This document shows, one piece after another, positions 2,724-23,400 of a stretch of 36,695 nucleotides of DNA. Position 1 is the stretch's first letter; the number at the start of each line of letters is the position of its first letter. This DNA comes from a virus: positions 1-36,695 of IMG/VR virus record IMGVR_UViG_3300020172_002120. One strand, written 5' to 3'. Below the pieces are notes generated by a model. It was not told the origin of the DNA. It saw only the letters and a list, made by a program, of their open reading frames with translations, and did no database searches. The translations under genes were made by a program, and so were the position numbers.

Positions 2724-2730
2724 CAACTAC

Positions 2731-2748
2731 GAGGGATGGCAACCCCTC
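2731..2748 (+). other. small hairpin in the leader of the 81-aa ORF
   Basis: GAGGG (2731–2735) pairs with CCCTC (2744–2748) around an 8-base loop. A second, weaker 5-bp stem pairs AAGTT (2752–2756) with AACTT (2765–2769). The Shine–Dalgarno GGAG (2771–2774) follows. No T-run follows, so it is not a normal intrinsic terminator. It could stabilise the mRNA or influence translation. Confidence 0.4.
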
Positions 2749-2782
2749 TAAAAGTTCCATTACTAACTTCGGAGAAAGTCTA

Positions 2783-3028: not shown

Positions 3029-3029
3029 A

Positions 3030-3037
3030 CATAAATA
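3030..3037 (+). promoter_or_regulatory. late promoter upstream of the baseplate genes (CATAAATA)
   Basis: CATAAATA matches the cyanophage late motif. It lies between genes, 24 bp before the gp25 start, at the head of a tight block gp25–gp6–gp7-like. Confidence 0.7.
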
Positions 3038-3061
3038 AAATCAGAAATTTCTGACCAATAA

Positions 3062-3463: not shown

Positions 3464-3464
3464 A

Positions 3465-5363
3465 ATGCCTTTTACAAAATTTACAAGTTTAGATTTCGAT
3501 CAGATAAAGACATCCATTAAGGATTATCTTCGTGCAAATTCCACTTTTACGGACTTTGACTTCGAAGGTTCTAATTTCTCTGTCTTGATCGATACGTTAG
3601 CGTATAACACATATATTACTGCATTTAATACCAATATGGTTGTTAACGAATCCTTTCTGGATTCGGCAACTCTTCGTGAAAATGTTGTTTCTCTGGCAAG
3701 AAACGTTGGTTATGTACCACGCTCCAGAACCGCCTCTAAGGCAGCAGTTTCATTTAGCGTACCAACTGCAGCAACTAGTCCTACAATCACTCTACAGGCG
3801 GGCCTAGTGTGTGTAGGTGCAGTAAATGATACCTCGTACATTTTTTCCATTCCAGAAAGTATCACAACAACTATATCTGGTGGGACTGCAACTTTTGGAT
3901 CAACTACAGACCCCATCTACATTTATCAGGGAACTTTTCTTAAGAAGCAATTTACCGTTGATGGATCTTTAGATCAGAGATTTATTTTAGATAACTCGTT
4001 TATTGATAGTGCAACGATTATAGTTAAAGTCAAGGGTCCTTCAGATTCGGGAGAAGGTAGAGAATATAAGCAAGTTGATAATATTTTAAATGTTAATGGT
4101 TCATCCGAAATCTATCTAATTCAAGAAGTACAGGATGAGAAGTACGAACTTCTTTTTGGTGACGGAATAATTGGTAAAAAATTAGAAGATGGTAGTATTA
4201 TTACTGCAACGTATATCCTTACTGATGGTAAAGATGGTAATGGACCATCACAGTTTTCATTTTCTGGAACTTTTAGAGATTCTTTAGATAAACAAATTAT
4301 TCCATCTGGATCCATTTCGATCAATACTATTTCTGCAGCATCAAATGGTGGTGATATTGAATCTATAAATTCCGTCAAATATTTTGCACCTCGATTATAT
4401 TCGGCACAATATAGAGCAGTTACTGCTAGGGATTATGAAACGATTATCCAATCAGTATATCAAAATACAGAATCTGTTTCCGTTGTTGGTGGTGAAGAAT
4501 TAGTCCCACCACAGTTTGGTAAAGTTTTAATTAGCATTAAACCCAAGAATGGGGATTATGTTTCTGACTTTGATAAACAAACAATTCTTTCCAAATTGAA
4601 GCAATATTCTTTGGTTGGAATCAAACAAGAAATCATTGATCTTAAGATTCTATATGTTGAACTTGATAGTTATGTTTATTACAATGCTTCTCAAGTTTCA
4701 AACGTTAATGACCTAAAAACGAAGGTTATTAATGCACTTACAACTTATTCCAATTCTGTTGATGTTAATAAATTTGGTGGCAGATTTAAGTATAGTAAGA
4801 TTCTTCAACTAATTGATAATACTGATGTTTCAATTACATCCAACATTACTAAGGTTATTATAAGAAGAAATCTTGTTGCTTCTCTAAATCAGTTTGCACA
4901 GTATGAATTATGTTTTGGAAACGCATTCCACGTTGATCCAAAAGGATATAATATCAAGAGTACTGGATTCACTATTTTTGGAGAGACAAGTACTGTATAT
5001 CTAACAGATATACCAAATGTAGATCGTTCTTCTGGAATAATTTCTATTGTTACTCAGGATGTTGGAAGTAGTGCAATTAGGGTTGTCAATAAATCGGTAG
5101 GAACTATAAATTACAAAACTGGGGAAATCCAAATATCTACTGTAAACATAACTTCAACAGCATTAGAAAATCATGTTATTCAGGTTCAGGCATATCCAGA
5201 ATCTAATGATATTATTGGATTGAAGGATCTTTATCTCAGTTTTAACGTTTCAAGTAGCAAGATAAATATGATTAAAGATACTATTTCTTCTGGAGAGCAG
5301 ATATCTGGCGTCGGATTTAAGTCAATTTCAAGTTATTCAAACGGAGATCTAAAGAGGCAGTAA
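3465..5363 (+). CDS. 6: baseplate wedge subunit gp6
   Basis: The 632-aa protein corresponds to T4 gp6 (660 aa), the core wedge protein that dimerises and links neighbouring wedges into the hexagonal baseplate (gpJ-like family). The N-terminus 'FTSLDFDQIKTSIKDYL' and the following 'VLIDTLAYNTYITAFNTNMVVNES' region (about residues 40–65) are the family's best-conserved block. A middle 'YRAVTARDYETII' (about 317–330) is the usual gp6/gpJ motif before the C-terminal domain. It starts two bases after the gp25 stop and is followed two bases later by the giant gp7-like gene, with AGAGG just upstream of the next ATG. Confidence 0.92.
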   Translation: MPFTKFTSLDFDQIKTSIKDYLRANSTFTDFDFEGSNFSVLIDTLAYNTYITAFNTNMVVNESFLDSATLRENVVSLARNVGYVPRSRTASKAAVSFSVPTAATSPTITLQAGLVCVGAVNDTSYIFSIPESITTTISGGTATFGSTTDPIYIYQGTFLKKQFTVDGSLDQRFILDNSFIDSATIIVKVKGPSDSGEGREYKQVDNILNVNGSSEIYLIQEVQDEKYELLFGDGIIGKKLEDGSIITATYILTDGKDGNGPSQFSFSGTFRDSLDKQIIPSGSISINTISAASNGGDIESINSVKYFAPRLYSAQYRAVTARDYETIIQSVYQNTESVSVVGGEELVPPQFGKVLISIKPKNGDYVSDFDKQTILSKLKQYSLVGIKQEIIDLKILYVELDSYVYYNASQVSNVNDLKTKVINALTTYSNSVDVNKFGGRFKYSKILQLIDNTDVSITSNITKVIIRRNLVASLNQFAQYELCFGNAFHVDPKGYNIKSTGFTIFGETSTVYLTDIPNVDRSSGIISIVTQDVGSSAIRVVNKSVGTINYKTGEIQISTVNITSTALENHVIQVQAYPESNDIIGLKDLYLSFNVSSSKINMIKDTISSGEQISGVGFKSISSYSNGDLKRQ

Positions 5364-5364
5364 T

Positions 5365-8300
5365 ATGATATCAACTGGTTTTGATGCAAGAGTAAAAGTA
5401 AATCAAATAATTGAAAGTCAACTCCCAGAATTTTTACTCTCAGAAAGTCCAAAAGCTGTCGATTTCTTTAAGCAGTACTATATTTCTCAAGAATTTACTG
5501 GCGGTTCTTCTGACATTTCAGAGAATTTAGATCAGTATTTAAAGCTTGACAATTTGACCCCAGAAGTTATTACTGGGTCTACAAAACTGTCGTATGAAAT
5601 TTCTTCAACATCTGGTGTAGTCACAGTTACATCAACTAAGGGGTTTCCACCTGAATATGGATTGCTAAAAATTGGTGATGAGATTGTTACATATACTGGC
5701 ATAACTACGAATACTTTTACAGGATGTATTCGTGGTTTCTCTGGTATTAGTAGCTATCATTCGGATTCAAATCCAGAAGAATTAGTCTTTTCTTCAACTA
5801 GTGCTGCTAATCATGCTTCTAATGCAGTAGTTGAAAATTTAAGCGTAGCATTTTTAAAAGAATTTTATAAAAAATTAAAATTTTCATTAACTCCTGGTCT
5901 AGAGGACCAAGATTTCGTTTCTGACTTGAATGTTGGAAACTTTATTCGCCAAGCTAGAGGGTTTTACCAGGCAAAGGGTACAGAAGAATCTTTTAGAATT
6001 TTATTCAATATTCTTTATGGGGTTACACCCAAAATTATTAATCTCGATAGTTTACTTTTAAAACCATCTTCAGCTTCTTTTATTAGAAGAGAAGTTGTAA
6101 TTGCAGAAAGAATTAGTGGCGACCCAAATAAACTTGTAGGACAAACAATATTCAAATCAACAGATTCTGGAACTAAAGCATCAATTTCCAATGTTGAGAT
6201 CTTAACTAGAGGCAAAAAAACCTATTATAGAATAGATTTGTTTGTTGGATTTAGTGATGCTGATGTTGTAGAAGGTAATTTTACAATTTCTCCGAAAACA
6301 AGAGTACTTGATACTGTTCCAATTGGTTCTTCTGTTATTACAGTTGACTCCACGATTGGATTCAATCAGTCAGGAACTGCTATATGTGGTGATAATACTA
6401 TCACATATTCGGATAAAACTATAAATCAATTTTTAGATTGTAGTGGTGTTACATCAATAATTACTCCATCAACCGATATTAGATCTGATGAAGTTTATTA
6501 TGGGTATGAAAATGGCGACACTAACTCAAAATCAGAAATAAGAATTACGGGAGTTTTGTCTGATTTTAAGGAATTAAACAAAATTGAAGAAGTAATTGTT
6601 GGTGAAAATATCTTAGTTAAAAATCTAGGGGAGTCAATCACAAATCCAGATTCAACTAATAAATCTTATAAACAATTATTTGCAAATTCTTGGATCTACA
6701 ATACAAGTTCTAGATTTAATGTTCTTAATATTTCGGGAACAACATTTACTTTAGGAACAGAAATTGACGAATCCAGTTTAAAAATTGGAGATATTGTTGA
6801 TATCTTAGTTACAAATACTCAAAATATTATTTTTTCGGGTGCTGTAGTTGCGAATATTAATAAAAATAACAAACAAATAACTCTCGATAATATTATTGGA
6901 TTTGTTCCTTTAACATCAATTGACTATGATGTACGAAGAAAGGTCAATAAGTCTTCAGCAGTAAATGTAGATATTCAGTATGGTAATAATGAAATTACAT
7001 CTGATGTTCAGAATGTTTATAATGAATCCGATCAATATTTTTATGTGGCATCAAATTCATTACCATCGTATTCGATTGAAAAAGAATTTGTTGAAGCAAC
7101 CATCACTAATGCTTTAGGTAATAATAGTTTACAAAATGTTGATATAGAGACTCAAAAGTATTCGATAATTTCTTTTGCAAGTCCTGTCCCATTTATCACT
7201 GGTGATAAGATTGTTTATAGTTCAACTAATGGGGATATTCCTGGTTTAGTTTCTGGGTCCAATTATTACGTTAAAGTATTAACTTTAACTAATCAAATTA
7301 AACTTTATGCATCAAGATCTTTTATTGAGATTGATGATTATCTTCAATTTTTTGAATTGAAGACTTCGGGATCTCATACTTTTACATTAGCATCACAAAA
7401 AAGTAGAAAAATTTTCCCACAAAAATTACTTAAAAAATTTCCACTTTCTCAAAATATTAAAAACGGTAGAAATCAAAAGACCAGTACTGGTTCTGTAGGT
7501 TTACTTGTAAATGGTGTTGAACTAGTTAATTATAAATCTGATGAGAAAGTTTATTATGGTCCAATTGATAGCATCACAGTTTTTAATAGTGGTGAAAATT
7601 ATGATGTTATCAACCCACCAAATATTGAAGTTGCTCCAAGTACTGGAGTTCAGGCTCTTATTACTCCAGTTGTTAGTGGTATAGTAACATCCGTTTTAGT
7701 TGACCCACAGGATTTTGATATTTCTGATGTTATTTCAGCAACAATAACTGGTGGAAATGGTAGTGGATGCCAACTTCAACCAATTTTAGAGGAAAGATAT
7801 AGAACTGTTTCCTTTGATGCTAGAGTCACCTCACAATCTGGTGGCGTAGATGTCAATCAAGAGACTATTAGTTTCTTGATTAACCATAATTTTAAAGATG
7901 GACAGGCAATTGTTTATAATAACAATGGCAATTCAAATCTAGGAGTTGCAACATATTTTGGCGGAAATTTTGATCAGGGAAACTATCTAGTAAATGGTAG
8001 TACATATTATGCAAAAATTTATAATAACAAAACAATTCGTTTACACCCAAAATTTACCGATTATCTTTCGGGTATTAATACTGTTGGTTTTAGTACTATC
8101 AATGCAGTAGGAGTTCATAAATTTAGAACATTTGATTCTAAGAAAACTTTAAAATCGATTAAAGTATTAAATCCTGGGAGTGGATATGAAAATAGAAAAC
8201 TATATGTAAAACCAGAAGCAATTTCTACAACTCAGGATTGGATAACTTTCAGCAATCACAATTTTAAAAATGGTGATATTGTTACATATTCAAATACTGG

Positions 8301-11300
8301 ATCTGTAGTTTCTGGTCTTTCAACTTCGAACCAATACTATATCATTAAAAATGACAATGATACTTTCCGTTTATCTAATGCTGGAATTGGTGGAACTATA
8401 ACCTCAAATTATATTAGAGAAAGTTTTGTCAAATTAAATTCTCAAGGATCGGGATATCATATTTTTGCATATCCAGAAATTTCATTAAATATAAACGTTT
8501 CTTATGCAACTAGTTCCGTTGGAGTCATAACTGCAACTCCTATTGTTAGGGGGGAAATAATTGATGCGTATCTTTATGAAAGTGGTAGTAAGTATGGATC
8601 AACCACAATAAATTTAAACAAAAAACCACAAGTTAGCATCAAAACTGGAAACGGGGCAGAATTAAAGGCATTTGTTGTTAATGGATCAATTGTCAGCGTT
8701 CAGGTCCTTGCCGCAGGAAGTAATTATAATGCATCTCCAGATTTGACTGTTGTTGGAGAGGGGAGTGGTGCGATTTTAAGAGCAAAAGTTTCTGGTGGTG
8801 CTTTAACAGATATTGTCATAATTAATGGCGGATCAAACTATCTTCAAGAAACTACATCAGTAAAAATTAATCCCCCAGGAAAAAATGCATTTATTGATGT
8901 ATCAATTAGATCTTTAACTATTAATTATTTTAATCGTTTTGGTAATGAAGTTCTTTTACCAAGTAAAAATGATATTGGATATGGATGGATCGGGTATTCT
9001 ACAAGTATTGCATTAGAACAATTTAATGATAATGGATCAACTCATTCTCCAATTATTGGATGGGCGTATGATGGAAATCCAATTTATGGACCATATGGAT
9101 ATTCAGATTCGGAAGATGTTGAATCTCCAATTAAATTATTGAACTCGGGATATATTCTAAATTCTTCATTAATTTCGGATCGTCCATCTGGATTTTCACC
9201 AGGATTTTTTGTTGAGGATTATGTATATAATGATTCTGGAGATTTGGATTATCATAATGGAAGATATGCAAAAACACCCGAATTTCCAAATGGTGTCTAC
9301 GCATATTTTGTTGGGATTGGAACTGATCAGGCAACAAATACATTGGTTCCAAAATTCCCATATTTTATTGGAGATACATACAGATCTACAGTAATTGAAG
9401 ACAATTTTCTCAATTTAGATCAAACTTTTGATTTTAATAATTCCAATTTAATCAGAAATACTTATCCATATAAAGTAAATCAAGAATATGCCGATAATGA
9501 TTTTATTGTAGAATCTAATGAGATTACCAATCAATCTCTAATTGTTGAATCTACAACAAAAGGTTCTATCAATTCGTATGAAATTTTAGAAGCAGGTGAT
9601 GGATATTCTATCGGAGAATCTGCCGTTTTTGATAATTTAGAAACAAATGGGGGAGGTCTTAGTGCCGAAGTTTCTTCCCTAACTGGTAAAGAAATTGGAA
9701 ATATTCAAACACAAACACAAACTTATACCGATGCAATCTTTACTTGGAAAGATAATAGTAATGTAGAGGCAACTGTTTACCCATATCATAATCTTCTTGA
9801 TCAAGAAAATATTACTATTTCTGGTCTATCAACCTATGTTCCAAAATTAACAGGTTCTCATAAAATCGGTGTTTCTACAGAAACAATAGTTGTATTTAAA
9901 GAAATTCCAACAAACTCAAGTTCTGGTATAGTAACTGACATATATGTTTCTACTATTTCAAATACCATCTCCATTGGTAGTACGATTGGTATAGGAACAG
10001 AATTTATGTCTGTTCTCAATGTTTTTAAAGATAGGAATATTCTTAGAGTTAAAAGGGGAGTAACAGGTGTTGCACATACAATTAGAACAAGAATTGATAT
10101 TTTAGCGAATAAATTTACTATTCCTATTAATATTGATTATTTTGATTCGAAAGTAAATGATAATGTATTTTTTAATCCAAAGTATTCTGTTGGTATTGGA
10201 TCAACATCTGGATCTACTTCTTTAGTTTCAGTTTCTATTGGGGAAACCGCACAAAATATTTCTATTCAAAATGGAACGATTTATATTCCAAATCATCCAT
10301 TTAAAGATAATCAAGCAGTTAGACTTGTAATGCCATCTAGTGGCATTGGATACACTTCATTATCTGTTATTGGTGGAGGATCTACTATAGGTCCAGCAGA
10401 TTATATTCCAAAAAATGATTCACAAATAGTATACATTATTAATAATGGAAAAGATTTTATTGGAATTAAAACTCAAGTTGGTCTATCAACTGGAGTTTAC
10501 TTCTTAAGTAATGGAAGTGATAATTTTGAGTATTATTTAAAAGCACAATATCCATCTACTACAGGAAAGGTTGAAAAGAATAAAACTGTGGTTTCCGTTT
10601 CCACAGATCATGGGTTATTGAATGGGGATATTATTTCATTAAAAGTCAAACCAGATCTAACAATTGGAATTGGAACTTCCACATTTGTCAAAATAAAAGT
10701 CAATAGTGGTGAGGATAAGATTCTTATCAATCCAATTGGATTTGGATCAGATTCAATCAATACATTTTCAGGTACAATTAATATTCCATCTCATGGATAT
10801 TCGACGGGAGATAAAGTTTTTTATACTGCAACTGATTTAATCGCATCAGGATTAACAACTTCATCTTATTATGTTTATCGTATTGATGACAATAACATTA
10901 AACTTTCAGAAACGTATAAGGATCTTCAATTAAATCCACCAATAAATGTAAGTATTGCTTCTAGTGGTGGAAAAAATCAAGAGTTAAATCTAATTAATCC
11001 ACCAATCAATACTATAAAAGGAAATAATTTAAAATTTGACCTATCGGATTCTTCTTTGGTTGGATATAAACTGAAAATTTACTATGATATTAATTTAGAA
11101 AATGAATTTATTTCTGTTGGTGCAACTAATTTTGCACTAGTAAATACTGGAACTATTGGTATAACTACCGATGCTACATTGGTTATTAGTTATGCTGATA
11201 ATATTCCATCAAAACTATTTTATGCATTAGAAAAAACTGGTTATATTAGCACATCTGATAAAGAGGTGGTTAATTATTCGCAAATATCTTTTGTAGATAG

Positions 11301-14300
11301 TCTTTATGATGGCACATATAAAATTGCTGGAGTTGGAGCAACAACTTTTGAGTTATCACTCGCACAAAAACCAGAAAGATCTTCATACACAATCAATGAG
11401 TGTAAGGAATTAACATATTCAACAACATCATTGACCGCAAAGGGTGGTGTTAATAAAATGAAGATTGTTTTTGGTGGATTTGGATATAAGAGATTGCCAC
11501 TATTCAAGTCTATTAATTCGGAAACTGGTATAAATGTAAATATTAATATACTTTCAAATAATATTGGCAATATTAAAGACATTAGAATCTTAGATCAAGG
11601 TTTCGAATATGCTTCGGACAAGACTCTAAGACCTGAGGCATTAATTTCTCCACTATTAACTTTAGTTGATAATACTGAAATAAGTAATGTTGAAATTCTT
11701 TTTGCTGGTAAAAAATATACATCTGCTCCAGAAATTGTTATTTTTAACCCATCTTCAAAAGAAATTATTAACAGTGGATCTATAAAAGCAAATGTTTATT
11801 CCAATTCACTAAGCGATGTTGAAATTGTTGAGAAACCTAAAGGATTAAATTCGGTTAATCATGAACTTTATACTGTTAATAACAGTAATGGTGTAGGTAT
11901 TAGTACTTTAATATCTGGAATTGGAATTGTAACTTGTTTCTTATCGACACCAGCTCTTGGATTTCAAATACCTCCATTTGAAATTGGAGATAAAATTTTT
12001 GTTGAAGGAATTCAAAAAAATAACGATAAAGGAGATGGATTTAATTCTATAGATCATAGTTTTACATTTTTTACTGTCGATAATTTTATTAATGTTATTC
12101 CAGCAAGATTGGAGTTTGATATTTCTAGAGCAACTAATAATCCAGGATTGGCAAAAACAGATCAATTATCTTTTGCTTCAATTATTAATAAATCAGATTA
12201 TCCCACTTTTAGAGTTACTCAAACTCAATCTAGTTTCCAAATTGGTGAAAAAGTAGCGGTAAAATCCTCTAGCGGTGCATTTGTATTACAAGATTTAAAA
12301 GTTACCGATTTTAGATCTAACAAAATTAAGATATTAGGTCAATATGAATTGGTTGTTGGTGATGTAATTAAGGGACAATTGTCGGGTTCCATATCACAAA
12401 TTCAATATTTTTCCCCAAATAGAGGTAGATTTGAAACTGATTATTCATTGAGAAAAGATTTTGGTTGGAATAATGATATTGGGAAGTTAAACGAGGATTA
12501 TCAGGTAATACCAAATAATGATTACTATCAAAACCTCTCATATACAATTAAGAGCCCTATAGAATATGAAACCTTAATCAATCCAGTAAATAGACTTCTC
12601 CACACAAGTGGAATGAAAAATTTTGCGGATACTCAAGTATCAAGCTCTTCTACATTACCTATTACTTCAGTAGATGTTTCAAGTATTACATTAATTGATC
12701 TTATTAGTGAAGAAAGAGTTGATGAAGTTAAGAATCTGGATTTAGTTATTGATGTTGATGTTGTTACATCTGGAACACAAACAAAATCAAAATATATTAA
12801 ATTTAAAAATAAAAAACTTTCAGATTACATTGAATGTAGGACAAATAGAGTTCTTTTAATAGATGATATCTCAACTCAGTTTTCTAATAATAATTTAAAC
12901 GAATCTGGATATTCTGATTTGTATAATTACAATGAAACATATGGTAGATTCTTAGTTCAGATTAAAGATACAAATGAACGTTTTACTCAATTAACTGAAT
13001 TGGTTGTTCTTTATACTGATAGTCAGGTTTTAGTTGAAGGTATTAAAGACGCCCAAACATTTACCTTAGAAAAAGGAACTTTGAGTAGTAAGGGAACATC
13101 TCTAGGAAATTTGGATGGAAATATAGATCAGTTTGACAATTTAACTTTGAGATTCATTCCAGTATCCAAGTTTGTTGATGATTATGACATCAAGATTTTA
13201 GTTAATAAGTTTAATACTGTAGTTGGTGGTGGAAGCAGTATTAATGATTTTGGATCTGTGAAGTTATATTCTGGATCTAAGAGTGTTGGTGCAGGAACAT
13301 CAGAGACCATAATCCAATTTAATTCCTCCGTAACAAATGGGTTCCACGGAACTATTCATGTTCTCGATCTGGATAATAATGAAATGAATTATTATGAGGT
13401 TTATTCATATACAGATGGATCTGATGTGTATATGTCAGAATTCTATTTTGATAACCAAAAAGCAACGACCAATAATTCAACAAATACTCTGGGAACATTT
13501 ACTTCATACCTTTCTGGGGGAGTTCTTAAACTAGATTTCAATAATACTCTAAAATCAACAAACAAACTAGTAAGATCTAGGATAGTTGGATTTGGTTCAA
13601 CATCTCTTGGAATTGGAACATATAGATTTGCTTTACCAGGTCAATCGCAAGAAAGAAGTGTTAGGTATGATTCTAGTGTCGTACATTCCGTTGGATCAGC
13701 ATCAACAACAGTAGTTGGTGTTGCTAGTGATGTAATTTCTGCAATCAAATCTTATGTACAAGTATCCATAGGAAATACATCTGCTATTCATCAAGTAATG
13801 ATGATGCATGATACTAGAGACATTTATGTCCTACAATATCCATTTTTATCGATTGGTTCTACATCTGGTATTGGGACCTTTGGTGGAGAATATGTTAGTG
13901 ATTTGGTTAGGCTCAATTTCTATCCAGATTCAAATATTTCTGGAATTGTAACTATCACCTCATTTAATGAGAAAATATATTCATATACTGATAGGGCAAA
14001 CAAGGCACCCGATTTTGTCTATGGACCAGAAACTGATTCTGTAGTTCTTTCAGAGTACAATGGGACTCAAGGTGATAGAATTAATAGACTGGATTTTAAT
14101 ATTGCATACCAAGGATATCCAATTTTCAGCAAGACTTTTGATCCTGGAGATTCTAATCAACTAAGTCTCTCAACAGGTATTTTTACAATTAAAAATCATT
14201 TCTTCCAAACAAATGAAAAATTAAACTATAAGGAAGGATCAACTTTTGTTGGATTATCTGCAATTTCAGTTGGAATTGGATCAACCCTTACTGGTGGTAC

Positions 14301-17300
14301 TATAGTTACTGGAGACTTTTTATCTGGATTTTCAACAATCACTGGTATCAGTACCTCAACTGGGTTGACAGTGGGTCAAACAGTTATTGGACCTGGAGTA
14401 CAGAATAATTCAGTAATTGTAAGTATCGGACAAACATTTGGGTGGTTCCGTGGAAATGTTTCTTCGGGATCTACAGTTATTACTGGAGTTGCTAATACTA
14501 CAATTATGGTTGTTGGATCTGGAATTTTTTCTGGAAATGGATCTTCTCTTGGAACATTAATTTCTATCGGCATTAATTCAATTACTGCAAGTGCTACTTT
14601 ACCAGTTGGAACTGCTGTAACTTATTATATTGATGCTCTTGGTGTGGGGGTATCACTATCTAACGTTTCTACAGGAACAACATTTAGGCAAAATTATACC
14701 ACTGGTATTTTAACTAGCACATGTCCTTCTACAGTTTATGCAATTAAATTAGATAATGATAGATTTAAACTAACTGGCACGTTTGGATCTGGAATTGGAT
14801 TTACATTCACTTCTTCTGGTAGTGGTAACGCACACAAACTAACAATGGATAAGAGATTGGAAAAATCTCTGATTTCTATCGACAATGTCAACCAATATCC
14901 ACTTTCATACACACCATTAAATTACCAATTATCCAATAATGGGGGACAGATTGGTGCTGCAAATACAATATTTGGTATTAGTGGAATCAGTTCTATTCGT
15001 GTAAATGATGTTCTCAAAATTGATAATGAATTTATGAAGATCATTTCCTTTGGATATGGATCTAGTACTATTGGACCTATTAGTGGAATTGGAACTTATC
15101 TATTAATGGGAGTTCAAAGAGGTTTTTCTGGAACAATAGCAACTTCTCATTTAGATAATGCATCTACCAGAGTCTTTAGAGGAGCATATAACATTGAAGA
15201 CAGCACACTCTATTTTACTGCTGCTCCTTTGGGTTCTGGAGTAAATGTCTTAGATAGCAGTAATTTGAAGAGACCAGTTTCTAAATTTGATGGTAGGGTT
15301 TACCTCAGAAAAAATTATACTACAAATAAAATTTATGATGATATTTCCGACCAATTCACAGGAATAGGTCAAACATTTAAGTTACAAAGCCAAGGAAATT
15401 CAACAACTGGTGTTGAGGCTGGAAATGGAATTCTATATGTAAATGAAATTTTCCAAACACCAACTACTGGCAATAATGCTGGAAATAACTATGCATTGCA
15501 AGAAACATCTGGAAATACTAATGTTATTTTTACTGGAATTACTTCCAGTGATGGTTCTGTTGTAAAATCTTTGGTTGACGTTAACCAAAATCAATTGCCA
15601 AGAGGGGGAATTATTGTTTCCCTCGGATCAACTCCTGGTTTAGGATATGCTGGACTTAAAGGAGCTCAGGTTGGGGTTATAACTGGGGCAGGTGGACAAA
15701 TTACTGGAATCATTGGGATTGGTACTACAGGAGCATATAATTCCTTAACTGGATTTGATTATAATAAAACTACAGGAATTTCTACTGTTTCTACAACATC
15801 TCCTCACGGATTATTATATAATGATAGTATTTCCTTTAGAAATATTAAATTTGAATGTCCTGATGGATATGCTGGATTCTCTACAGTTGGAATTAGTAGC
15901 CTATTTTACAGTAATGTAAGTGGATTTATGACAGTGACGACAAGTTCGCCACATAAATTAGCAACTGGAATGAATATTAGATTGAGAAATCTCGAATTCT
16001 CCTGCTCTGGAACATATGGAATTACTACATCAATATTCCCAGATGGAACTCAGGGATATATCTTTACCGTTGCTTCTATAGTTGGACTAAACACATTTGG
16101 AGTTAATGTTGGAACAAGTACAATAGGACATAATTATGTTAAGGGGGGAACAATAGAATCGGGTATTACTACCAATATATTCCCAGATTCTAGAGGAATA
16201 CCATTCAGCATAAGTAATTTCCAATATGACAAAACCAGTGGTGTTTCAACCATAACATTTAACAATAACCACAACTTTAAATTGTCCGACACAATTAAAG
16301 TTGTTAATGCTAAATTTGATTGCCCCATTTCTGCTGGAACAACAATTGGAATTACATCTTCCCAGTATAGCAAAACAACTGGAATTCTTACAGTAACTAC
16401 TGCTACACCTCATGGACTTGGAGTTGGTGGAACAACGAGAATATTTGACATGAATTTTTCTTGCCCATCTGGAAGCTCTGGGATTACAACAACCGTTTTC
16501 CCTGACGGATCGAGAGGATATTTCTTCCCTGTAAATCTTGTAGGATTCCCAACACAATTTACAACAAATGTTGGTACATCCACAATTACACATGACTATG
16601 TAAATGGTGGGTATATACAGATTGGAGTCACTACGGATCGTTTCCCAGATAGAGGTAAGAATTTAACTATCGTAAGTATTCCAAGTGCAAATCAAATTAT
16701 TACTAATGTTGGAGTCTCAACAATTACTCATGATTATGTTAGTGATGGTTATGCATATGCAGTTAAGAGGACTGGTCCATACAGAGTCACTAGAGTACTA
16801 AATTCAACTCAATTTGAAACCAATGTTTATACGGTTGGATTCGCTCATACTTATATTAGTGGTGGTGAAGTTTCCAAATATTACAATTATCAAACAGGAT
16901 CTGGATATAGGGGGGAAATTGGAATTGCAATTACTTCACCAACTGGTAATGGAGCTAATATTACTGCTTTTGCAGGAATTGGTGGTACATTAGGATTTAA
17001 GATTAATTCTTCTGGTTCTGGATATGGATTTGAAAATACTTTAGTTTCCGTTCCAGAACCATCCTATGAAAATCTCCAGATTAAGGGCGTATCCAGAGTT
17101 GGTGTTGGTAGTACAACTGATACTGGAATTGGTTTACTTCTAAGTTTAGATGTTGGAGCAGCAGCAACAACTGGAATTGGATCGGATACTTTTGAGGTTA
17201 AGAACTTTAAAATTACAAGACCTGGATATGCATTCCAATTAGGTGATGTATTCACTGCTGTTGGACTTGTAACCGCAAAAGGACTATCAAATCCAATTAA

Positions 17301-18861
17301 TCAGTTCGAATTAACAGTTATTGATCTTTATTCAGATTCATTTGCTGCATGGCAATTTGGTGAACTCGATTTCATCGATACAATCAAACCACTACAAGAT
17401 GGTATTAGAACTAGATTCCCACTACTTTATAACGGTCAATTATTGAGTTTTGAAATTAATAGAAATGATCCAGATTCATCACAAATTGATCTCAATGCTG
17501 TTTTATTAGTTTATATCAATGGCGTACCACAAACTCCAGGAGTTGCATATCAGTTTACTGGAGGAACATCATTTGTATTTACATCACCTCCAGCAGATGA
17601 TGCAGACGTTGCAATTTTCTTCTATAGGGGAACAAGAAATAGTGATAGTGTATTTGTAAACGTAAATGAAACTATTAAATCTGGAGATACTGTAACCATA
17701 TCTAAAAATAATGATATTAGAACAACGGTCGATCAGTATTCAAGAGTTGTATATGATATTTCTTCTGCTGACAAAATTCAAACTAATCTTTATTCAGATG
17801 CTGGTATCGATCAAACTAATTACAAACCAATAAATTGGAAAAAACAAAAATCTGATAGAATTATTGGTGGTGATTATGTTTATAAGACGAGAGATTCTTT
17901 AGAATCGGCAATTTATCCTACTGCCAAAATCATTAAGAATGTTTCATCAACAGATACTGAATTATTTGTTGATGATGCTAGATTCTTTAATTATGAAGAA
18001 AATGAATCGGCAATTCAAATTGGAGTTTTCAATGCATTACTTACAAATACCCCAATAGATCCAATCGCAGCTAAATTAACAGCAACAGTATCTGCTGCTG
18101 GAACAATTAGTTCTTTAAATATTGTTAGTGGTGGTAGTGGATATGATTCTGGTACGGCAATTATTAAAATCGCAGCCCCTAGGGCAATTGGTGTAGGTGT
18201 TGGCACAACAGCTGTTGCTTTAGCAACGGTTCTTAATGGATCTATTACAAATGCATCTATATCTAATGGGGGATTTGGATACTTACAAGCAGTACCTCCA
18301 GCAGTTCTTGCATCAGTTGATAAGGCATCTTATGAAGATATTGGAAATATTTCTGGCGTTTTAGGATTCTCTGGCATTATAACAGGAATTACAACAACAT
18401 CTGGAATAGGTGGACATCCTCTAGCATTAAAATTATTCTTGAAAGCAGATTCATTCAATTCATTATTGGTAAATTATCCAATTTACGTTTTTGACACCAC
18501 TGTTGGAAAAGGAATAACTTCTGTCGATGGTGGTAATTCTTCTGTTGTTGGTGTTGGAACTACGTATGCTGATAATGTTTATTATATCCACTCAATAACA
18601 CCTTTTGGATCTAATGCTGAGGTCATCACAAACATTAATAGTAATACCTCAGTTGTTGGACTAGCAACTACTGGATCTATTACCAATCCCGTTGGTAAAT
18701 TCTCCTGGGGTAGATTTAGTGGATTTACCAGAGGTTCTACAGCACTTTCAATTGGTGTAACGGGTCTCTCTGTTAGTTCTGGTCTTTCATCTTTCCCAAC
18801 AATTCAGAGGAGAGGATTTGGATTAAGAGATCATGGTGGATTGAGAAAGATACTTGTTTAA
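5365..18861 (+). CDS. giant (4,498 aa) gp7-like baseplate wedge protein with repeat-rich extension
   Basis: One uninterrupted 13.5-kb frame lies between gp6 and gp8, the position of T4 gene 7. Residues about 160–320 resemble the later part of T4 gp7: 'RQARGFYQAKGTEESFRILF' (about 195–214), then 'KLVGQTIF' and a 'YYRIDL' strand, the segment shared by gp7 and P2 gpI-type wedge proteins. T4 gp7 is about 1,030 aa, so most of this protein is extra. The extension has His-x-Phe/Leu-x-x-Gly-Asp modules (around 603–652, 841–897, 965–1005, 1643, 1749, 1810–1853), Gly-x-Gly-Tyr repeats, a YHYH-like domain (1232–1317), a 'GxxVxGpGV' module (about 2970–3090), a 155-residue tandem duplication (3465–3774) and a C-terminal 'INGVPQTPGVAYQF...GTSFVF' module. 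It ends 'TIQRRGFGLRDHGG', which I associate with other cyanophage structural proteins. It probably forms the wedge core plus long peripheral decorations. Confidence 0.88.
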   Translation: MISTGFDARVKVNQIIESQLPEFLLSESPKAVDFFKQYYISQEFTGGSSDISENLDQYLKLDNLTPEVITGSTKLSYEISSTSGVVTVTSTKGFPPEYGLLKIGDEIVTYTGITTNTFTGCIRGFSGISSYHSDSNPEELVFSSTSAANHASNAVVENLSVAFLKEFYKKLKFSLTPGLEDQDFVSDLNVGNFIRQARGFYQAKGTEESFRILFNILYGVTPKIINLDSLLLKPSSASFIRREVVIAERISGDPNKLVGQTIFKSTDSGTKASISNVEILTRGKKTYYRIDLFVGFSDADVVEGNFTISPKTRVLDTVPIGSSVITVDSTIGFNQSGTAICGDNTITYSDKTINQFLDCSGVTSIITPSTDIRSDEVYYGYENGDTNSKSEIRITGVLSDFKELNKIEEVIVGENILVKNLGESITNPDSTNKSYKQLFANSWIYNTSSRFNVLNISGTTFTLGTEIDESSLKIGDIVDILVTNTQNIIFSGAVVANINKNNKQITLDNIIGFVPLTSIDYDVRRKVNKSSAVNVDIQYGNNEITSDVQNVYNESDQYFYVASNSLPSYSIEKEFVEATITNALGNNSLQNVDIETQKYSIISFASPVPFITGDKIVYSSTNGDIPGLVSGSNYYVKVLTLTNQIKLYASRSFIEIDDYLQFFELKTSGSHTFTLASQKSRKIFPQKLLKKFPLSQNIKNGRNQKTSTGSVGLLVNGVELVNYKSDEKVYYGPIDSITVFNSGENYDVINPPNIEVAPSTGVQALITPVVSGIVTSVLVDPQDFDISDVISATITGGNGSGCQLQPILEERYRTVSFDARVTSQSGGVDVNQETISFLINHNFKDGQAIVYNNNGNSNLGVATYFGGNFDQGNYLVNGSTYYAKIYNNKTIRLHPKFTDYLSGINTVGFSTINAVGVHKFRTFDSKKTLKSIKVLNPGSGYENRKLYVKPEAISTTQDWITFSNHNFKNGDIVTYSNTGSVVSGLSTSNQYYIIKNDNDTFRLSNAGIGGTITSNYIRESFVKLNSQGSGYHIFAYPEISLNINVSYATSSVGVITATPIVRGEIIDAYLYESGSKYGSTTINLNKKPQVSIKTGNGAELKAFVVNGSIVSVQVLAAGSNYNASPDLTVVGEGSGAILRAKVSGGALTDIVIINGGSNYLQETTSVKINPPGKNAFIDVSIRSLTINYFNRFGNEVLLPSKNDIGYGWIGYSTSIALEQFNDNGSTHSPIIGWAYDGNPIYGPYGYSDSEDVESPIKLLNSGYILNSSLISDRPSGFSPGFFVEDYVYNDSGDLDYHNGRYAKTPEFPNGVYAYFVGIGTDQATNTLVPKFPYFIGDTYRSTVIEDNFLNLDQTFDFNNSNLIRNTYPYKVNQEYADNDFIVESNEITNQSLIVESTTKGSINSYEILEAGDGYSIGESAVFDNLETNGGGLSAEVSSLTGKEIGNIQTQTQTYTDAIFTWKDNSNVEATVYPYHNLLDQENITISGLSTYVPKLTGSHKIGVSTETIVVFKEIPTNSSSGIVTDIYVSTISNTISIGSTIGIGTEFMSVLNVFKDRNILRVKRGVTGVAHTIRTRIDILANKFTIPINIDYFDSKVNDNVFFNPKYSVGIGSTSGSTSLVSVSIGETAQNISIQNGTIYIPNHPFKDNQAVRLVMPSSGIGYTSLSVIGGGSTIGPADYIPKNDSQIVYIINNGKDFIGIKTQVGLSTGVYFLSNGSDNFEYYLKAQYPSTTGKVEKNKTVVSVSTDHGLLNGDIISLKVKPDLTIGIGTSTFVKIKVNSGEDKILINPIGFGSDSINTFSGTINIPSHGYSTGDKVFYTATDLIASGLTTSSYYVYRIDDNNIKLSETYKDLQLNPPINVSIASSGGKNQELNLINPPINTIKGNNLKFDLSDSSLVGYKLKIYYDINLENEFISVGATNFALVNTGTIGITTDATLVISYADNIPSKLFYALEKTGYISTSDKEVVNYSQISFVDSLYDGTYKIAGVGATTFELSLAQKPERSSYTINECKELTYSTTSLTAKGGVNKMKIVFGGFGYKRLPLFKSINSETGINVNINILSNNIGNIKDIRILDQGFEYASDKTLRPEALISPLLTLVDNTEISNVEILFAGKKYTSAPEIVIFNPSSKEIINSGSIKANVYSNSLSDVEIVEKPKGLNSVNHELYTVNNSNGVGISTLISGIGIVTCFLSTPALGFQIPPFEIGDKIFVEGIQKNNDKGDGFNSIDHSFTFFTVDNFINVIPARLEFDISRATNNPGLAKTDQLSFASIINKSDYPTFRVTQTQSSFQIGEKVAVKSSSGAFVLQDLKVTDFRSNKIKILGQYELVVGDVIKGQLSGSISQIQYFSPNRGRFETDYSLRKDFGWNNDIGKLNEDYQVIPNNDYYQNLSYTIKSPIEYETLINPVNRLLHTSGMKNFADTQVSSSSTLPITSVDVSSITLIDLISEERVDEVKNLDLVIDVDVVTSGTQTKSKYIKFKNKKLSDYIECRTNRVLLIDDISTQFSNNNLNESGYSDLYNYNETYGRFLVQIKDTNERFTQLTELVVLYTDSQVLVEGIKDAQTFTLEKGTLSSKGTSLGNLDGNIDQFDNLTLRFIPVSKFVDDYDIKILVNKFNTVVGGGSSINDFGSVKLYSGSKSVGAGTSETIIQFNSSVTNGFHGTIHVLDLDNNEMNYYEVYSYTDGSDVYMSEFYFDNQKATTNNSTNTLGTFTSYLSGGVLKLDFNNTLKSTNKLVRSRIVGFGSTSLGIGTYRFALPGQSQERSVRYDSSVVHSVGSASTTVVGVASDVISAIKSYVQVSIGNTSAIHQVMMMHDTRDIYVLQYPFLSIGSTSGIGTFGGEYVSDLVRLNFYPDSNISGIVTITSFNEKIYSYTDRANKAPDFVYGPETDSVVLSEYNGTQGDRINRLDFNIAYQGYPIFSKTFDPGDSNQLSLSTGIFTIKNHFFQTNEKLNYKEGSTFVGLSAISVGIGSTLTGGTIVTGDFLSGFSTITGISTSTGLTVGQTVIGPGVQNNSVIVSIGQTFGWFRGNVSSGSTVITGVANTTIMVVGSGIFSGNGSSLGTLISIGINSITASATLPVGTAVTYYIDALGVGVSLSNVSTGTTFRQNYTTGILTSTCPSTVYAIKLDNDRFKLTGTFGSGIGFTFTSSGSGNAHKLTMDKRLEKSLISIDNVNQYPLSYTPLNYQLSNNGGQIGAANTIFGISGISSIRVNDVLKIDNEFMKIISFGYGSSTIGPISGIGTYLLMGVQRGFSGTIATSHLDNASTRVFRGAYNIEDSTLYFTAAPLGSGVNVLDSSNLKRPVSKFDGRVYLRKNYTTNKIYDDISDQFTGIGQTFKLQSQGNSTTGVEAGNGILYVNEIFQTPTTGNNAGNNYALQETSGNTNVIFTGITSSDGSVVKSLVDVNQNQLPRGGIIVSLGSTPGLGYAGLKGAQVGVITGAGGQITGIIGIGTTGAYNSLTGFDYNKTTGISTVSTTSPHGLLYNDSISFRNIKFECPDGYAGFSTVGISSLFYSNVSGFMTVTTSSPHKLATGMNIRLRNLEFSCSGTYGITTSIFPDGTQGYIFTVASIVGLNTFGVNVGTSTIGHNYVKGGTIESGITTNIFPDSRGIPFSISNFQYDKTSGVSTITFNNNHNFKLSDTIKVVNAKFDCPISAGTTIGITSSQYSKTTGILTVTTATPHGLGVGGTTRIFDMNFSCPSGSSGITTTVFPDGSRGYFFPVNLVGFPTQFTTNVGTSTITHDYVNGGYIQIGVTTDRFPDRGKNLTIVSIPSANQIITNVGVSTITHDYVSDGYAYAVKRTGPYRVTRVLNSTQFETNVYTVGFAHTYISGGEVSKYYNYQTGSGYRGEIGIAITSPTGNGANITAFAGIGGTLGFKINSSGSGYGFENTLVSVPEPSYENLQIKGVSRVGVGSTTDTGIGLLLSLDVGAAATTGIGSDTFEVKNFKITRPGYAFQLGDVFTAVGLVTAKGLSNPINQFELTVIDLYSDSFAAWQFGELDFIDTIKPLQDGIRTRFPLLYNGQLLSFEINRNDPDSSQIDLNAVLLVYINGVPQTPGVAYQFTGGTSFVFTSPPADDADVAIFFYRGTRNSDSVFVNVNETIKSGDTVTISKNNDIRTTVDQYSRVVYDISSADKIQTNLYSDAGIDQTNYKPINWKKQKSDRIIGGDYVYKTRDSLESAIYPTAKIIKNVSSTDTELFVDDARFFNYEENESAIQIGVFNALLTNTPIDPIAAKLTATVSAAGTISSLNIVSGGSGYDSGTAIIKIAAPRAIGVGVGTTAVALATVLNGSITNASISNGGFGYLQAVPPAVLASVDKASYEDIGNISGVLGFSGIITGITTTSGIGGHPLALKLFLKADSFNSLLVNYPIYVFDTTVGKGITSVDGGNSSVVGVGTTYADNVYYIHSITPFGSNAEVITNINSNTSVVGLATTGSITNPVGKFSWGRFSGFTRGSTALSIGVTGLSVSSGLSSFPTIQRRGFGLRDHGGLRKILV
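9058..9315 (+). other. degenerate YHYH-like domain inside the giant protein
   Basis: Residues 1232–1317 contain 'GWAYDGNPIYGPYGY', 'DLDYHNGRY' (1293–1301) and 'TPEFPNGVYAYFVG'. This follows the order of the YHYH domain family (GxAxDGxPIYGP, DLDxxNGxx, and a final YHYH). The eponymous motif reads YAYF (1312–1315), so both His are lost. The domain's function is unknown even in bacteria. Confidence 0.75.
15757..16686 (+). repeat. intragenic tandem duplication, about 155 residues (465 bp) x 2
   Basis: Residues from D3465 and from about 3620 begin matching blocks (FDYNKTTGIS / FQYDKTSGVS). Each block holds two 'SPHGL...F.C' subunits, then 'FPDG..GY.F', then 'VGTSTI.H.YV.GG', then 'G.TT..FPD'. The period between matching Tyr residues (3466 and 3621) is 155 aa. 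The copies have diverged at the DNA level, so the duplication is not recent. Confidence 0.8.
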
Positions 18862-18894: not shown

Positions 18895-20448
18895 ATGGCC
18901 GCAATTGTAACCGATCAGTTCAGAATACTAAACGCTAGTAATTTTATTGATTCAGTTGCTGATCAAAATAATTCTTATTATGTTTTTGTTGGGCTACCAA
19001 ATCCCACTCAAGTTGGGTTTGGTAGAACTTCAGATTGGAACACCAATGTTTTGGATCCTGTAGACAACTTTAATTATGCAAATCATGCAACTGATACAAT
19101 GCTCTTTGGGAAGAAAGTAACACTTTCCAATGTGAAGAGAATTGTAAGAAGAGTTGATTGGACTCAGGGAACAAGATATGAAATGTATCGCCATGATTAC
19201 AGTATTAACTCACCTTCACCAGTTACACAATCATCTCGTCTATATGATGCTAATTATTATGTATTAAACGCAGACTATAGAGTCTATATTTGTATAGACA
19301 ATGGATCTTCTGGAATTAATACTTCAGGAAATGCTTCTCAAGACCAACCAGTATTTACTGATCTGGAACCATCCAAGGCTGGAGAAAGTGGGGATGGTTA
19401 TATTTGGAAATACTTATTTACGGTTTCTCCTAGCGACATTATTAAATTCGATTCAACAGATTATATTTGTGTTCCAAATGATTGGTCGAATTCTACTGAT
19501 GCTCAAATTCAAGCAATTAGAGATAATGGAGATTCTTCAGTAAATGAAAATCAAATAAAAAAAGTTTATATTGAAAGGCAGGGTGAAAATTATTCTAGTG
19601 GATTGGGTCAGGAAGTAAATATTGTTGGTGATGGAACTGGTGCAAAAGTTGTTATTGATGTCGTAAGTGGAAAAATTACAAATGCTGTAGTTTCTTCTGG
19701 TGGGAAAGGGTATACTTATGGAATGGTTGATCTTGGAACACTTAACTCCAATGTAATTCCAGCAAAATCCGCAAATTTAATTCCAATTATACCACCTTCA
19801 AAGGGACATGGATATGATCTTTATAAAGAATTGGGAACTGATAGGATTTTAGTTTATGCAAGATTTGATGATTCGACTAAAGACTTCCCAATTGATACGA
19901 AATTTGCTGAGATTGGATTGTTAAAAAATCCAACTTCAATTGGAGCAACAAATGCTTACATTGAAAACCAATTCTCATCTCTTTACGCACTCAAATTTGG
20001 AACAACAAGTGGATCTTTAAGTGTTGGTGACGTAATTAGTCAACCAGTATCTGGGGGAGTGGCAATTGGATATGTTGCATCATATGATACTGAAACTAAA
20101 GTTGTTAAATATATTAGAGATAGATCTTTATTTTTCAACTCAACCTCTTTAGATCAAACAGATTATGTTGGAGTAACAACTAGTGCCAAGGTTTTTAACT
20201 TTGAATCTTCTTCAACAAGTGTAACTTCAAATAGTGGTTTTTCTGCATCTGTTGATTTGAATTTTACTGGTATCACCACAAATCCAACTGGCAATAAAGT
20301 TATTAATCTTGGATCATATTTTACAAGTGGGGTTGCACAACCAGAAATAAATAAAACATCTGGTGACATAATTTATTTGGACAATCGTCCCTTGATCTCA
20401 AGAAACTCTAGACAAAAAGAAGACGTTAAAATTATCCTGGAATTTTAA
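18895..20448 (+). CDS. 8: baseplate wedge subunit gp8 with an inserted repeat module
   Basis: The 517-aa protein matches T4 gp8 (334 aa) at both ends. The N-terminus 'IVTDQFRILNASNFIDS' leads to a 'VKRIVRRVDWTQGTRY' region (about 82–97). Then come 'GDGYIWKYLFTVSPSD' (about 166–181) and a C-terminus 'SGDIIYLDNRP' ending 'IILEF', parallel to the T4 'SGEMIYMENRP...ILFTF' ending. gp8 is a dimeric wedge protein between gp7 and gp10. About 180 extra residues lie between these blocks. They include two Gly-x-x-Tyr repeats (about 220–287: 'IERQGENYSSG', 'SSGGKGYTYG') and a 'VGDVISQPVSGGVAIGYV' module. Both types recur in other virion proteins here. Gene order 7-like–8 agrees with T4. Confidence 0.9.
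   Translation: MAAIVTDQFRILNASNFIDSVADQNNSYYVFVGLPNPTQVGFGRTSDWNTNVLDPVDNFNYANHATDTMLFGKKVTLSNVKRIVRRVDWTQGTRYEMYRHDYSINSPSPVTQSSRLYDANYYVLNADYRVYICIDNGSSGINTSGNASQDQPVFTDLEPSKAGESGDGYIWKYLFTVSPSDIIKFDSTDYICVPNDWSNSTDAQIQAIRDNGDSSVNENQIKKVYIERQGENYSSGLGQEVNIVGDGTGAKVVIDVVSGKITNAVVSSGGKGYTYGMVDLGTLNSNVIPAKSANLIPIIPPSKGHGYDLYKELGTDRILVYARFDDSTKDFPIDTKFAEIGLLKNPTSIGATNAYIENQFSSLYALKFGTTSGSLSVGDVISQPVSGGVAIGYVASYDTETKVVKYIRDRSLFFNSTSLDQTDYVGVTTSAKVFNFESSSTSVTSNSGFSASVDLNFTGITTNPTGNKVINLGSYFTSGVAQPEINKTSGDIIYLDNRPLISRNSRQKEDVKIILEF
20346..20353 (+). promoter_or_regulatory. possible late promoter within the end of gp8 (AATAAATA)
   Basis: AATAAATA lies about 100 bp upstream of the DUF4815-type gene, inside gp8 coding sequence (residues Asn-Lys). 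Position is plausible for a late promoter serving the 7.1-kb gene, but AT-rich Asn/Lys codons can produce it by chance. Confidence 0.25.
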
Positions 20449-20451
20449 AAA

Positions 20452-23400
20452 ATGCCACAGAAAACGAATCTCAATATTAATCCCTATTATGATGACTTTG
20501 ATAAGTATAATAATTTCTATAGGGTATTATTTAAACCAGGATATCCTGTTCAGGCTAGAGAACTAACAACATTACAATCTATTCTTCAGAATCAGGTTGA
20601 ATCGTTTGGTAGTCATATTTTTAAAGAAGGGTCAATGGTAATTCCTGGAGGAATTACTTATGATTTAAATTATTATGCTATCAAAATTAATCCAGATCAT
20701 TTAGGTATTGATGTTTCACTTTATATTGATAAATTAGTTGGAGTAACTCTCGAAGGTCAGTCATCTGGGGTGACTGCAACTGTCTTGGGATACTTACTCC
20801 CACCAGATCTTGGAGTAGAAACTCCAACTTTATATGTAAAATACCGTAATTCAAATAATGACGCAGTATTTGATACCTTTAACGATAAAGAGGTATTAAT
20901 TGCCCAATCAACTATAACTTATGGTAATACCTCAATTAATTCTGGCGATACTTTAGCTACGGTATTCCCCCTAAACGCTTCAGCAATTGGTTCTAGAGTT
21001 AATTTAGCGGCGGGAGTCTATTTTATTAGGGGAACATTCGTTGATGTTGAAAGTTCCTCAGTAATTCTTGATCCATATGAAAATACACCATCGTATAGAG
21101 TTGGATTAACTATCCTAGAGGAAATTGTAAGCGCATCAGATGATAACTCATTATATGACAATGCTAAAGGATTTTCAAACTATGCTGCTCCAGGAGCTGA
21201 TAGATTAAAAATTAGTGCTATTTTATCTAAAAAATCATTGACAGATTTTGATGATAAAAGTTTTGTTGAGTTAATTAGATTAGATAATGGTGAAGTTAAG
21301 AAATTACAAGATAAAACACAATATTCATTAATCAAAGATTATTTTGCCAAAAGAACTTTTGAAGAATCTGGTGATTATTCAATTGATAATTTCAAAGTTG
21401 AAGTAACCAATTCATTAAATGATAGAATTTCCAGTAGTGGAATTTATTTAGAAAATCAAAAAACTGATTCTGGAAATGCACCATCAGATAGTTTGATGTG
21501 TGTTAAAGTTTCTCCTGGAAAAGCTTATGTTCGTGGATTTGACATTGAAACTGTCAGCACAACTATTCTAGATGTCGATAAACCAAGAGATACAAAAACA
21601 GTTTCTTCAGCTTTAGTGCCATTTGAACTTGGAAGTTTAGTAAGAGTTAATAATGTTTATGGAGCACCTTTTGTAGGAATAAACAATAATAATAGTATCG
21701 TTTATTTACAAAATAGAAGAAAAGAAACAAATACTGTAGGTAGTGGAACAACTATAGGTCAAGCAAGAGTTTATACTTATAATTTAACGGAATCGCCATA
21801 TACACAACCATCTACTCAATGGGATTTGTACCTTTTTGATATTCAAACTTATACTGTTATCACACTCAATACTTCACTTACCCCCCAACAATGCCCCCAA
21901 TCTTCTTTTATTAGGGGTGCAAGTAGCGGTGCTTCAGGATATGTTGCAGATTCAAATACTGCTTCAACCATTACTCTACTTCAAACATCGGGAGCATTTA
22001 TTGCAGGGGAACAAATTTTAATAAATGAATCTACGGAATTTAGTAGATCAATTCAAAGTGTTAAGGCATATAATGCCGATGACATAAAATCAGTATATCA
22101 AAATAGTACTGGAATAACTTCTAAATTAAAAACTACCTTCACTGCAGATCTTGTCTTACAAAAATCAGTTCCTGCAGGTTTTAATGTAACTGATTCTATT
22201 TTTATTGATAATACTGGTATTGCAACTTGTGCTGGGAAGTCTTTCCTAGGAATCAGAAGTGATGCAATCATTCGTTATCAACGTCCAGGAATTGGAACGG
22301 AAACATACAGTAGAGTTCAGTATGTTTCATCCGATGGGTTTACAATGAAACTAGTTGGTATCAGCAGTGTTGCCAATGTATGTAATGGTGATATCCCCGT
22401 TGGAGTAACAAGCACATTTAATGGTGCATTTAGAATAGGTGTCCCCAAAATAAAACAAAATGATGAGGCATCTCTTTATGCAAGACTTACAAGTAAAGAT
22501 ATTGCAACCGTAAATTTAGGTAGTTCAAATATACTAATTAATAATCAACTTACAGAACAATCAACATCAGCATCGGGATCTCTTGTTGTCAATGTAAATG
22601 CAACTGGAATTAGTAGTGCATTTTTTGAAGCTTTTGATTATGATAGATATTCGGTTATCTATAATGATGGTGTAATAGAATCTTTAAGATCAGATCAATT
22701 TATTTTAGATGTCGGTGGAACACAACTTACAATTAATGGTCTAAGAGTAAGCCAAACAAATAATGTTACACTCAATACAACTGTAAGAAAAATTTCAGTT
22801 ACAAATAAAGTAAAACAATTCTTAAGAAGTCAAAAGTTAGATATAGTCAGAACTGTTTCGGCAGCATCAACTGCTCTAACTGGTTTATCTACTAATCCTT
22901 ATTATGGAGTAAGAGTTGAAGATAAAGAAATTTCTTTAAATATACCTGATGTTGCAAATGTCATTGCGGTTTATGAATCATTAGACCAAAATGCACCCAT
23001 TTTAGATAAATTAACTTTTGTTTCTGGTTTAAATTTAGATACAGCAACAATTTTGGGTGAAAAAATTGTTGGAAGTACCAGTGGCGCAATCGCCCAATTG
23101 GCAACTAGAGTTTCTGGTGTAAGCGGCACACAGGTTGAATTTGTTTATCTCAACAATTCTAAATTCCAAGTTGGCGAATTAGCAACCTTTAAAGAATCGA
23201 ATATTACTGCAAACATTCAGGGAATTATACCAGGAACATATTTAAATATTACAGATAGATATACATTAGATAAAGGTCAGAAGGAGCAATATTACGATTA
23301 TTCAAAAATAGTAAGAAAAACTGGTTCAGCAGATCCAAAGAGAAGACTTCTTGCAATTTATAATAGGTATGATGTCCCAACAAATGACACTGGGGATGTA

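Follow-up and report, generated by a model that had tools for sequence, protein, structure and literature searches.

Gene content and gene order at the locus

The window, i.e. the whole stretch of 36,695 nucleotides that was analysed, is a 36.7-kb metagenomic viral fragment (record IMGVR_UViG_3300020172_002120). The giant frame was found to start with ATG and to run for 4,498 codons with no interruption, and the chance of a stop-free run of that length, calculated from the base composition of the window, was about 10^-158. The giant gene was found to start one base past gp6 and to end 33 bases ahead of gp8, with gp25 located upstream, and the gene order gp25-gp6-giant-gp8-VrlC matched that of the named phages (Table 1). 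The third-position GC was uniform across the whole giant gene. The first-pass annotation of this DNA had reported an uninterrupted frame of 13.5 kb placed between gp6 and gp8; both were upheld, the latter by the flanking genes.

A small S-adenosylmethionine decarboxylase gene (PF02675) was found directly upstream of gp25 at positions 2358-2699, and the same was found in Synechococcus phage S-SRM01. A 553-aa protein at positions 34306-35967 was found to contain DUF5661 and DUF6321 regions and matched many PHROGs of unknown function.

Table 1. Features assigned in the window; residues are those of the giant protein and positions are nucleotides of the window.
Feature	Residues	Position	Strand	Evidence
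gp25 wedge protein		3062..3463	+	PF04965 1.6e-11
gp6 wedge protein, gp7 partner		3465..5363	+	PF21379 7e-18; tblastn to T4-like gp6 E~1e-28
Giant gp7/BW3 baseplate wedge protein (assigned), 4,498 aa, 485 kDa		5365..18861	+	ORF; PHROG 2885 'baseplate wedge subunit' E=0; synteny
gp7 core part 1: N-terminal helices, inserted beta barrel, helix hairpin, second beta domain	~10-308	5392..6288	+	A1 profile vs PDB; hhalign to T4 gp7; compact-gp7 core1 profile iE 7e-11
Small beta barrel between core helices, module C; second copy 312-382	~63-161	5551..5847	+	AF2 model, VIA-align; module profile
gp7 signature helices FYQAKGTEESFRILFNILYG, equivalent to T4 gp7 727-758	193-224	5941..6036	+	hhalign; A1 profile
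Core insertion, putative fixed-length arm of beta modules	~309-2379	6289..12501	+	boundaries from core profiles; length classes, variation <2%, 199 distinct ORFs
Module A (HxF..GD.V..YYV)	599-678	7159..7398	+	module profile
Module A	832-925	7858..8139	+	module profile
Module A	956-1039	8230..8481	+	module profile
Three module B (GxGY) copies	1063-1191	8551..8937	+	module profile
Degenerate YHYH-like domain; IGWAYDGNPIYG...DLDxxNGR half kept, histidine-rich YHYH segment lost	1221-1317	9025..9315	+	PF14240; alignment to bacterial YHYH proteins
Module A	1801-1879	10765..11001	+	module profile
gp7 core part 2, NNDYYQNLSYTIKS...LLHTSGMKNF	2380-2427	12502..12645	+	profile of five compact non-cyanophage gp7 proteins iE 2.1e-9; widened profile iE 3.6e-9
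C-terminal tail, length differs between relatives	2428-4498	12646..18858	+	
Tandem repeat, ~153-aa unit	~3447-3796	15703..16752	+	resembles tail-fibre PHROGs 17885 and 3442
Conserved distal tail region	~3870-4240	16972..18084	+	identity across relatives
gp8 wedge protein		18895..20448	+	PF09215 3e-13
VrlC-type protein without gp7 core		20452..27558	+	phrog_358, DUF4815; core scan

Family and size of the giant protein

The full profile of PHROG 2885 matched the giant protein with E=0 and 3,742 bits. The family is already catalogued under this PHROG as 'baseplate wedge subunit', and several GenBank records were found to carry the name 'baseplate wedge initiator'. The nearest isolate was S-SRM01 of the Kyanoviridae (59.7% over the first 400 residues), and the N-terminal region was present in some 460 cyanophage records. 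The proteins in the same slot were of 3,895 aa in S-SRM01, 4,446 aa in P-HM1, 4,225 aa in ACG-2014f, 6,395 aa in S-RIM8 and 6,619 aa in S-SZBM1, and since the named relatives range from 3,007 to 6,619 aa, a length of 4,498 aa is ordinary for the Kyanoviridae. The gene for the 6,619-aa relative was confirmed by inspection of the S-SZBM1 locus, and purified S-SZBM1 virions contain its product, found as 71 peptides by mass spectrometry (PMC9146016).

Identity of the N-terminal region

The A1 profile, built from 85 relatives of residues 1-340, was searched against 177,635 distinct PDB sequences and was found to match only T4-type gp7 (E 6.8e-6 and 1.4e-5), at T4 residues 727-758. The alignment to T4 gp7 by hhalign gave an E of 2.5e-5, and its three top segments were the three expected. 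The second-best match in the alignment of the T4 family paired T4 residues 866-922 with residues 2395-2453 of the window protein and the third paired T4 645-671 with 12-38, both of them weak and collinear. No match was found by phmmer of the whole giant protein against the PDB, and the N-terminal 400 residues searched against it as a single sequence gave only chance-level matches, the profile alone being successful.

The AF2 model of residues 1-340 was weak (pLDDT 66). Its top Foldseek match was chain BJ of 5iv5 (E 4.6e-3, with poor superposition), a 1,004-residue chain of the T4 baseplate that was read as gp7 from its length, and the named gp7 chain 5hx2_A was found at rank 20. Only the inserted barrel of this model was matched by VIA-align.

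The assignment of the giant protein as the gp7 (BW3) wedge protein of a Kyanoviridae-type T4-like cyanophage was found to be well supported at the level of sequence. An expanded wedge protein of gp7 type had been proposed in the first-pass annotation and is supported by the N-terminal profile match and by hhalign; the confident gp7 profile match at the N-terminus, named there as a check, was obtained with the A1 profile, and of the local match to T4 gp7 that it had placed at residues of about 195–290, the segment at 193-224 proved statistically sound.

Second part of the gp7 core

A profile for the second part of the core was built from five compact gp7 proteins of non-cyanophages (Ochrobactrum, Sinorhizobium, Rhizobium, Agrobacterium and Dickeya phages). 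It was found to match residues 2379-2424 of the window protein (iE 2.1e-9, 27.7 bits), whereas the best of 399 decoys, for which all targets were reversed and shuffled, reached 3.9 bits. This was the only significant match across the six frames of the window, and one interior match was found in every named cyanophage giant. By tblastn, residues 3-273 of the Ochrobactrum phage OC protein (631 aa) matched T4-like gp7 (E ~1e-4 to 3e-5), and the same protein matched the cyanophage giants in two separate places, through its residues 61-218 (E 5e-12) and 219-286 (8e-9). The link to T4 at part 2 rests mainly on these bridging compact proteins, because the direct T4 match was weak (hhalign E 0.23; iE 0.37 for T4 itself and down to 8e-4 for other T4-like gp7).

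The residues between the part-1 and part-2 profile matches numbered 2,134 in the window protein, 105-106 in T4-like gp7 and 8-91 in compact gp7. Since part 2 lies 2,134 residues past part 1, about half of the extra mass is a core insertion and about half is a C-terminal tail. A gp7 core split between residues ~10-308 and 2380-2427, with ~2,100 residues inserted and ~2,070 residues present as a tail, was found to be well supported by these profile comparisons. The statement of the first-pass annotation that everything after the N-terminal match is extra therefore fails at residues 2380-2427, where part 2 is located; its observation that the extra mass precedes the core in T4 and follows part 1 here stands, but the confinement of the core to the N-terminus does not.

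The order of core parts 1 and 2 and the place of the gene between gp6 and gp8 are common to the window protein and T4 gp7, whereas T4 gp7 contains ~640 residues ahead of the core and ~106 separating its two parts, and the window protein contains almost none and 2,134, respectively. The compact gp7/BW3 proteins of Ochrobactrum phage OC, Dickeya phage phiDP23.1, Sinorhizobium phage phiM19 and Rhizobium phage P10VF were found to contain both parts with strong profile scores, and in phiM19 and P10VF insertions at the insertion point of the window protein, but they are of 284-1,007 aa with gaps of 8-791 residues. The cyanophage gp7 proteins of S-SRM01, ACG-2014f, P-HM1 and S-SZBM1 were alike in slot and core order, and S-SRM01 and ACG-2014f also in the class of insertion, whereas the identity in this family was 55% (S-SRM01) or less over the first ~580 residues and the length and content of the tail differed.

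Length of the insertion and of the tail

Among metagenomic ORFs, 199 distinct ones were found to contain both core parts, each part once and always in the same order. The gaps between them fell into classes with means of 1,554, 2,171 and 2,721 residues and a variation of 0.9, 1.9 and 0.7%, respectively. In the class of the window, the only one that the tail comparison covers, 35 ORFs had a known end, and their tails were of 478-2,777 residues (variation 24%) whereas their insertions varied by 1.7%. Since the loci of this census are related to one another, these length figures characterise the family and do not count as independent observations; the useful control is to set the insertion against the tail within single ORFs.

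The core-to-core gaps at one insertion point were found to be of 8, 83, 85, 91, 165, 296, 404, 433 and 791 residues, followed by those of 1,549-2,784. The same point was occupied in the proteins with gaps of 165 (L426), 296 (L429), 404-433 (P10VF, OLIVR6 and L431) and 791 residues (phiM19), and the smaller phage gp7 proteins of this graded series were of 284 to 1,007 aa. The series may reflect stepwise growth, and its graded natural intermediates may illustrate how growth at a single internal site could enlarge a structural protein. The gp7 of a Rhizobium phage (L182:4206-6833) and of an Agrobacterium phage (L183:4176-6821) was found to contain both a T4-like N-terminal addition and a cyanophage-like core insertion of ~400 residues.

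The protein family is known; a split-core layout with a fixed insertion length was found to be undescribed in the searchable open-access literature, as far as it was searched.

Alternative readings of the giant frame

An assembly fusion of separate genes, which the first-pass annotation had itself raised against its reading, would fit the origin of the window in a metagenomic viral record and the annotation of metaG-MbCM1 with the two core parts in separate frames. The frame is nevertheless not such a fusion, because a single long frame occupies this slot in each of the independent complete isolate genomes; one frame was likewise found in the 199 metagenomic ORFs, and with the uniform third-position GC the probability left to a fusion is negligible. 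The absence of gp7 from cyano- and pelagimyophages, with VrlC in its stead, was stated in a 2020 paper (PMC7029224), and the giant protein would by that account be an unrelated structural protein. Across the six frames of the window, however, the gp7 core profiles matched the giant frame only (9.7e-10 and 4.8e-8, the next best being 0.45 or worse), and phiM19 was found to contain VrlC plus a gp7 with both core parts. VrlC as a replacement of gp7 is contradicted by core-profile matches to the giant frame and none to VrlC, and this account was considered very improbable.

The match at residues 2380-2427 might instead be a separate duplicated domain, the N-terminal gp7 being complete and carrying a long extension in line with the first-pass annotation. 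The weak direct T4 match at part 2 is in favour of this, and no structure has both parts together; but the two parts are adjacent and single in compact gp7, exactly one of each in constant order was found in 199 of 199 distinct giant ORFs, and short, medium and long insertions enter at one point, so that a duplicated domain appears rather unlikely. Cleavage sometimes occurs in very long structural proteins of viruses, and proteolytic processing in assembly could turn the arm and the tail into separate chains. The published mass-spectrometric coverage of the S-SZBM1 protein is 13.5%, without peptide positions, and the protein is listed as a single 724-kDa species (PMC9146016); this listing and the near-constant insertion length, which suggests one folded unit, speak, though not decisively, against processing, which was considered quite unlikely. 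Taken as a whole, a single gp7 wedge core in two parts, with an inserted arm of ~2,100 residues and a host-facing tail of ~2,070 residues, is the probable explanation.

In metaG-MbCM1 (L007:16165-29553), core parts 1 and 2 were located in two adjacent annotated frames, and the intervening stretch was open in one frame except for a stop. Its relative S-RIM8 contained a single frame of 6,395 aa, and the stop in metaG-MbCM1 is either a sequence error or a real split.

Modules and repeats of the insertion and the tail

The insertion was found to be filled with beta-rich modules, rich in Ser, Thr, Gly and Asn; about seven copies of module A, 10 copies of module B and two clear copies of module C, a small barrel, were counted in the protein. 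The module C barrel of the AF2 model matched phage structural proteins in VIA-align with Z up to 8.9 (2.2 A over 77 residues). The GxGY module was found to be common to the gp7 insertion and the gp14-like, gp8 and VrlC proteins of the window. The gp14-like neck protein at positions 31150-32808 contained five GxGY modules past its conserved domain.

BLASTP of the protein against itself gave no repeats, which were probably masked by the self-hit; they were found by fragment and profile searches instead. The 'repeat extension' of the first-pass annotation holds for the modules and for one strong tandem repeat (residues 3447-3796), but the repeats are otherwise weak at the sequence level. The tail contained stretches absent from most relatives, and residues 3901-4200 showed a mean identity of 58-63% (24-29 loci) with poorly conserved stretches on either side. 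The extension yielded no carbohydrate-binding fold.

The YHYH-like region

The Pfam profile PF14240 matched the YHYH-like region with 86.9 bits against a curated cut-off of 25 and covered profile positions 87-181 of 193 only. The region was the best conserved part of the insertion and occurred in 463 records, a number similar to that for the N-terminus. As in bacterial YHYH proteins, residues 1221-1317 contained conserved IGWAxDGxPIYG and SGDLDxxNGR, whereas the histidine-rich YHYH segment, which in those proteins lies in a predicted zinc site (PMC7824862), was missing. The YHYH motif and the histidine cluster were found in 0 of 69 aligned phage rows and not in the window protein, and both bacterial proteins contained them. 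YHYH domains are predicted to be metal-dependent hydrolases (PMC7824862); the prediction is probably inapplicable here because the motif and the histidine cluster are lost, and an active metal hydrolase was disfavoured on the loss of the cluster. Databases label residues 1221-1317 a YHYH domain, though the histidine-rich half is gone. For residues 1050-1500, the AF2 model had no match in the PDB that exceeded Z 4; the best of the weak rows, located at its end, were to ubiquitin-activating enzyme E1 (Z 3.3-3.8 over ~49 residues) and were given no weight.

Proposed architecture and role

Two gp6 subunits and one gp7/BW3 make up a heterotrimer (PMC6300606), and BW3/gp7 forms the periphery of the baseplate, where receptor-binding proteins are usually attached (PMC10811340). 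Following the precedent of T4 and T6SS, core residues ~10-308 and 2380-2427 would pair with two gp6 subunits per wedge and keep the usual job of gp7, whereas the ~2,100-residue chain of beta modules, including the degenerate YHYH domain, would loop out of the core and return to it, followed by the exit of the ~2,070-residue tail past part 2. The insertion, anchored at both ends, may be a rigid arm or an outer wedge layer of set reach that replaces the mass added before the core in T4, and the free tail may project toward the host and serve as a fast-evolving adhesin or fibre adaptor that is built into the protein. We infer a structural arm and a more host-facing tail, a division which the constant insertion and variable tail lengths support and do not prove. 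Heterotrimer formation and six copies per virion, which would amount to 2.9 MDa, are carried over from T4.

As a more tentative and rather doubtful extension, the inserted ~2,100 residues, as a fixed-length arm held in the wedge core at both ends, could build a second baseplate layer and assume the roles of gp9-gp12, which are separate peripheral proteins in T4, with the free tail as the fast-evolving host contact; the peripheral baseplate would then have been taken up into a core wedge gene that grew at a single internal site. The search of the window for the T4 gp9/gp10 N-terminal family gave no match, and as the control was also without a match, this negative carries no information.

The Kyanoviridae cyanophages are among the commonest marine viruses. 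The present analysis places a gp7 in phages said to be without it, with its core split around an insertion of near-constant length, and exact boundaries are now available for the core, the arm and the tail. The length-constrained arm can be told apart from the variable tail, and the tail is the better candidate for host range. Gp119 of Bacillus phage Vp4 is alike by description, being a wedge-3 protein enlarged with carbohydrate-binding modules that binds host cells, as its module-free relative does not (PMC11406892); it is unlike the window protein in its size of 831 aa and in its carbohydrate-binding folds.
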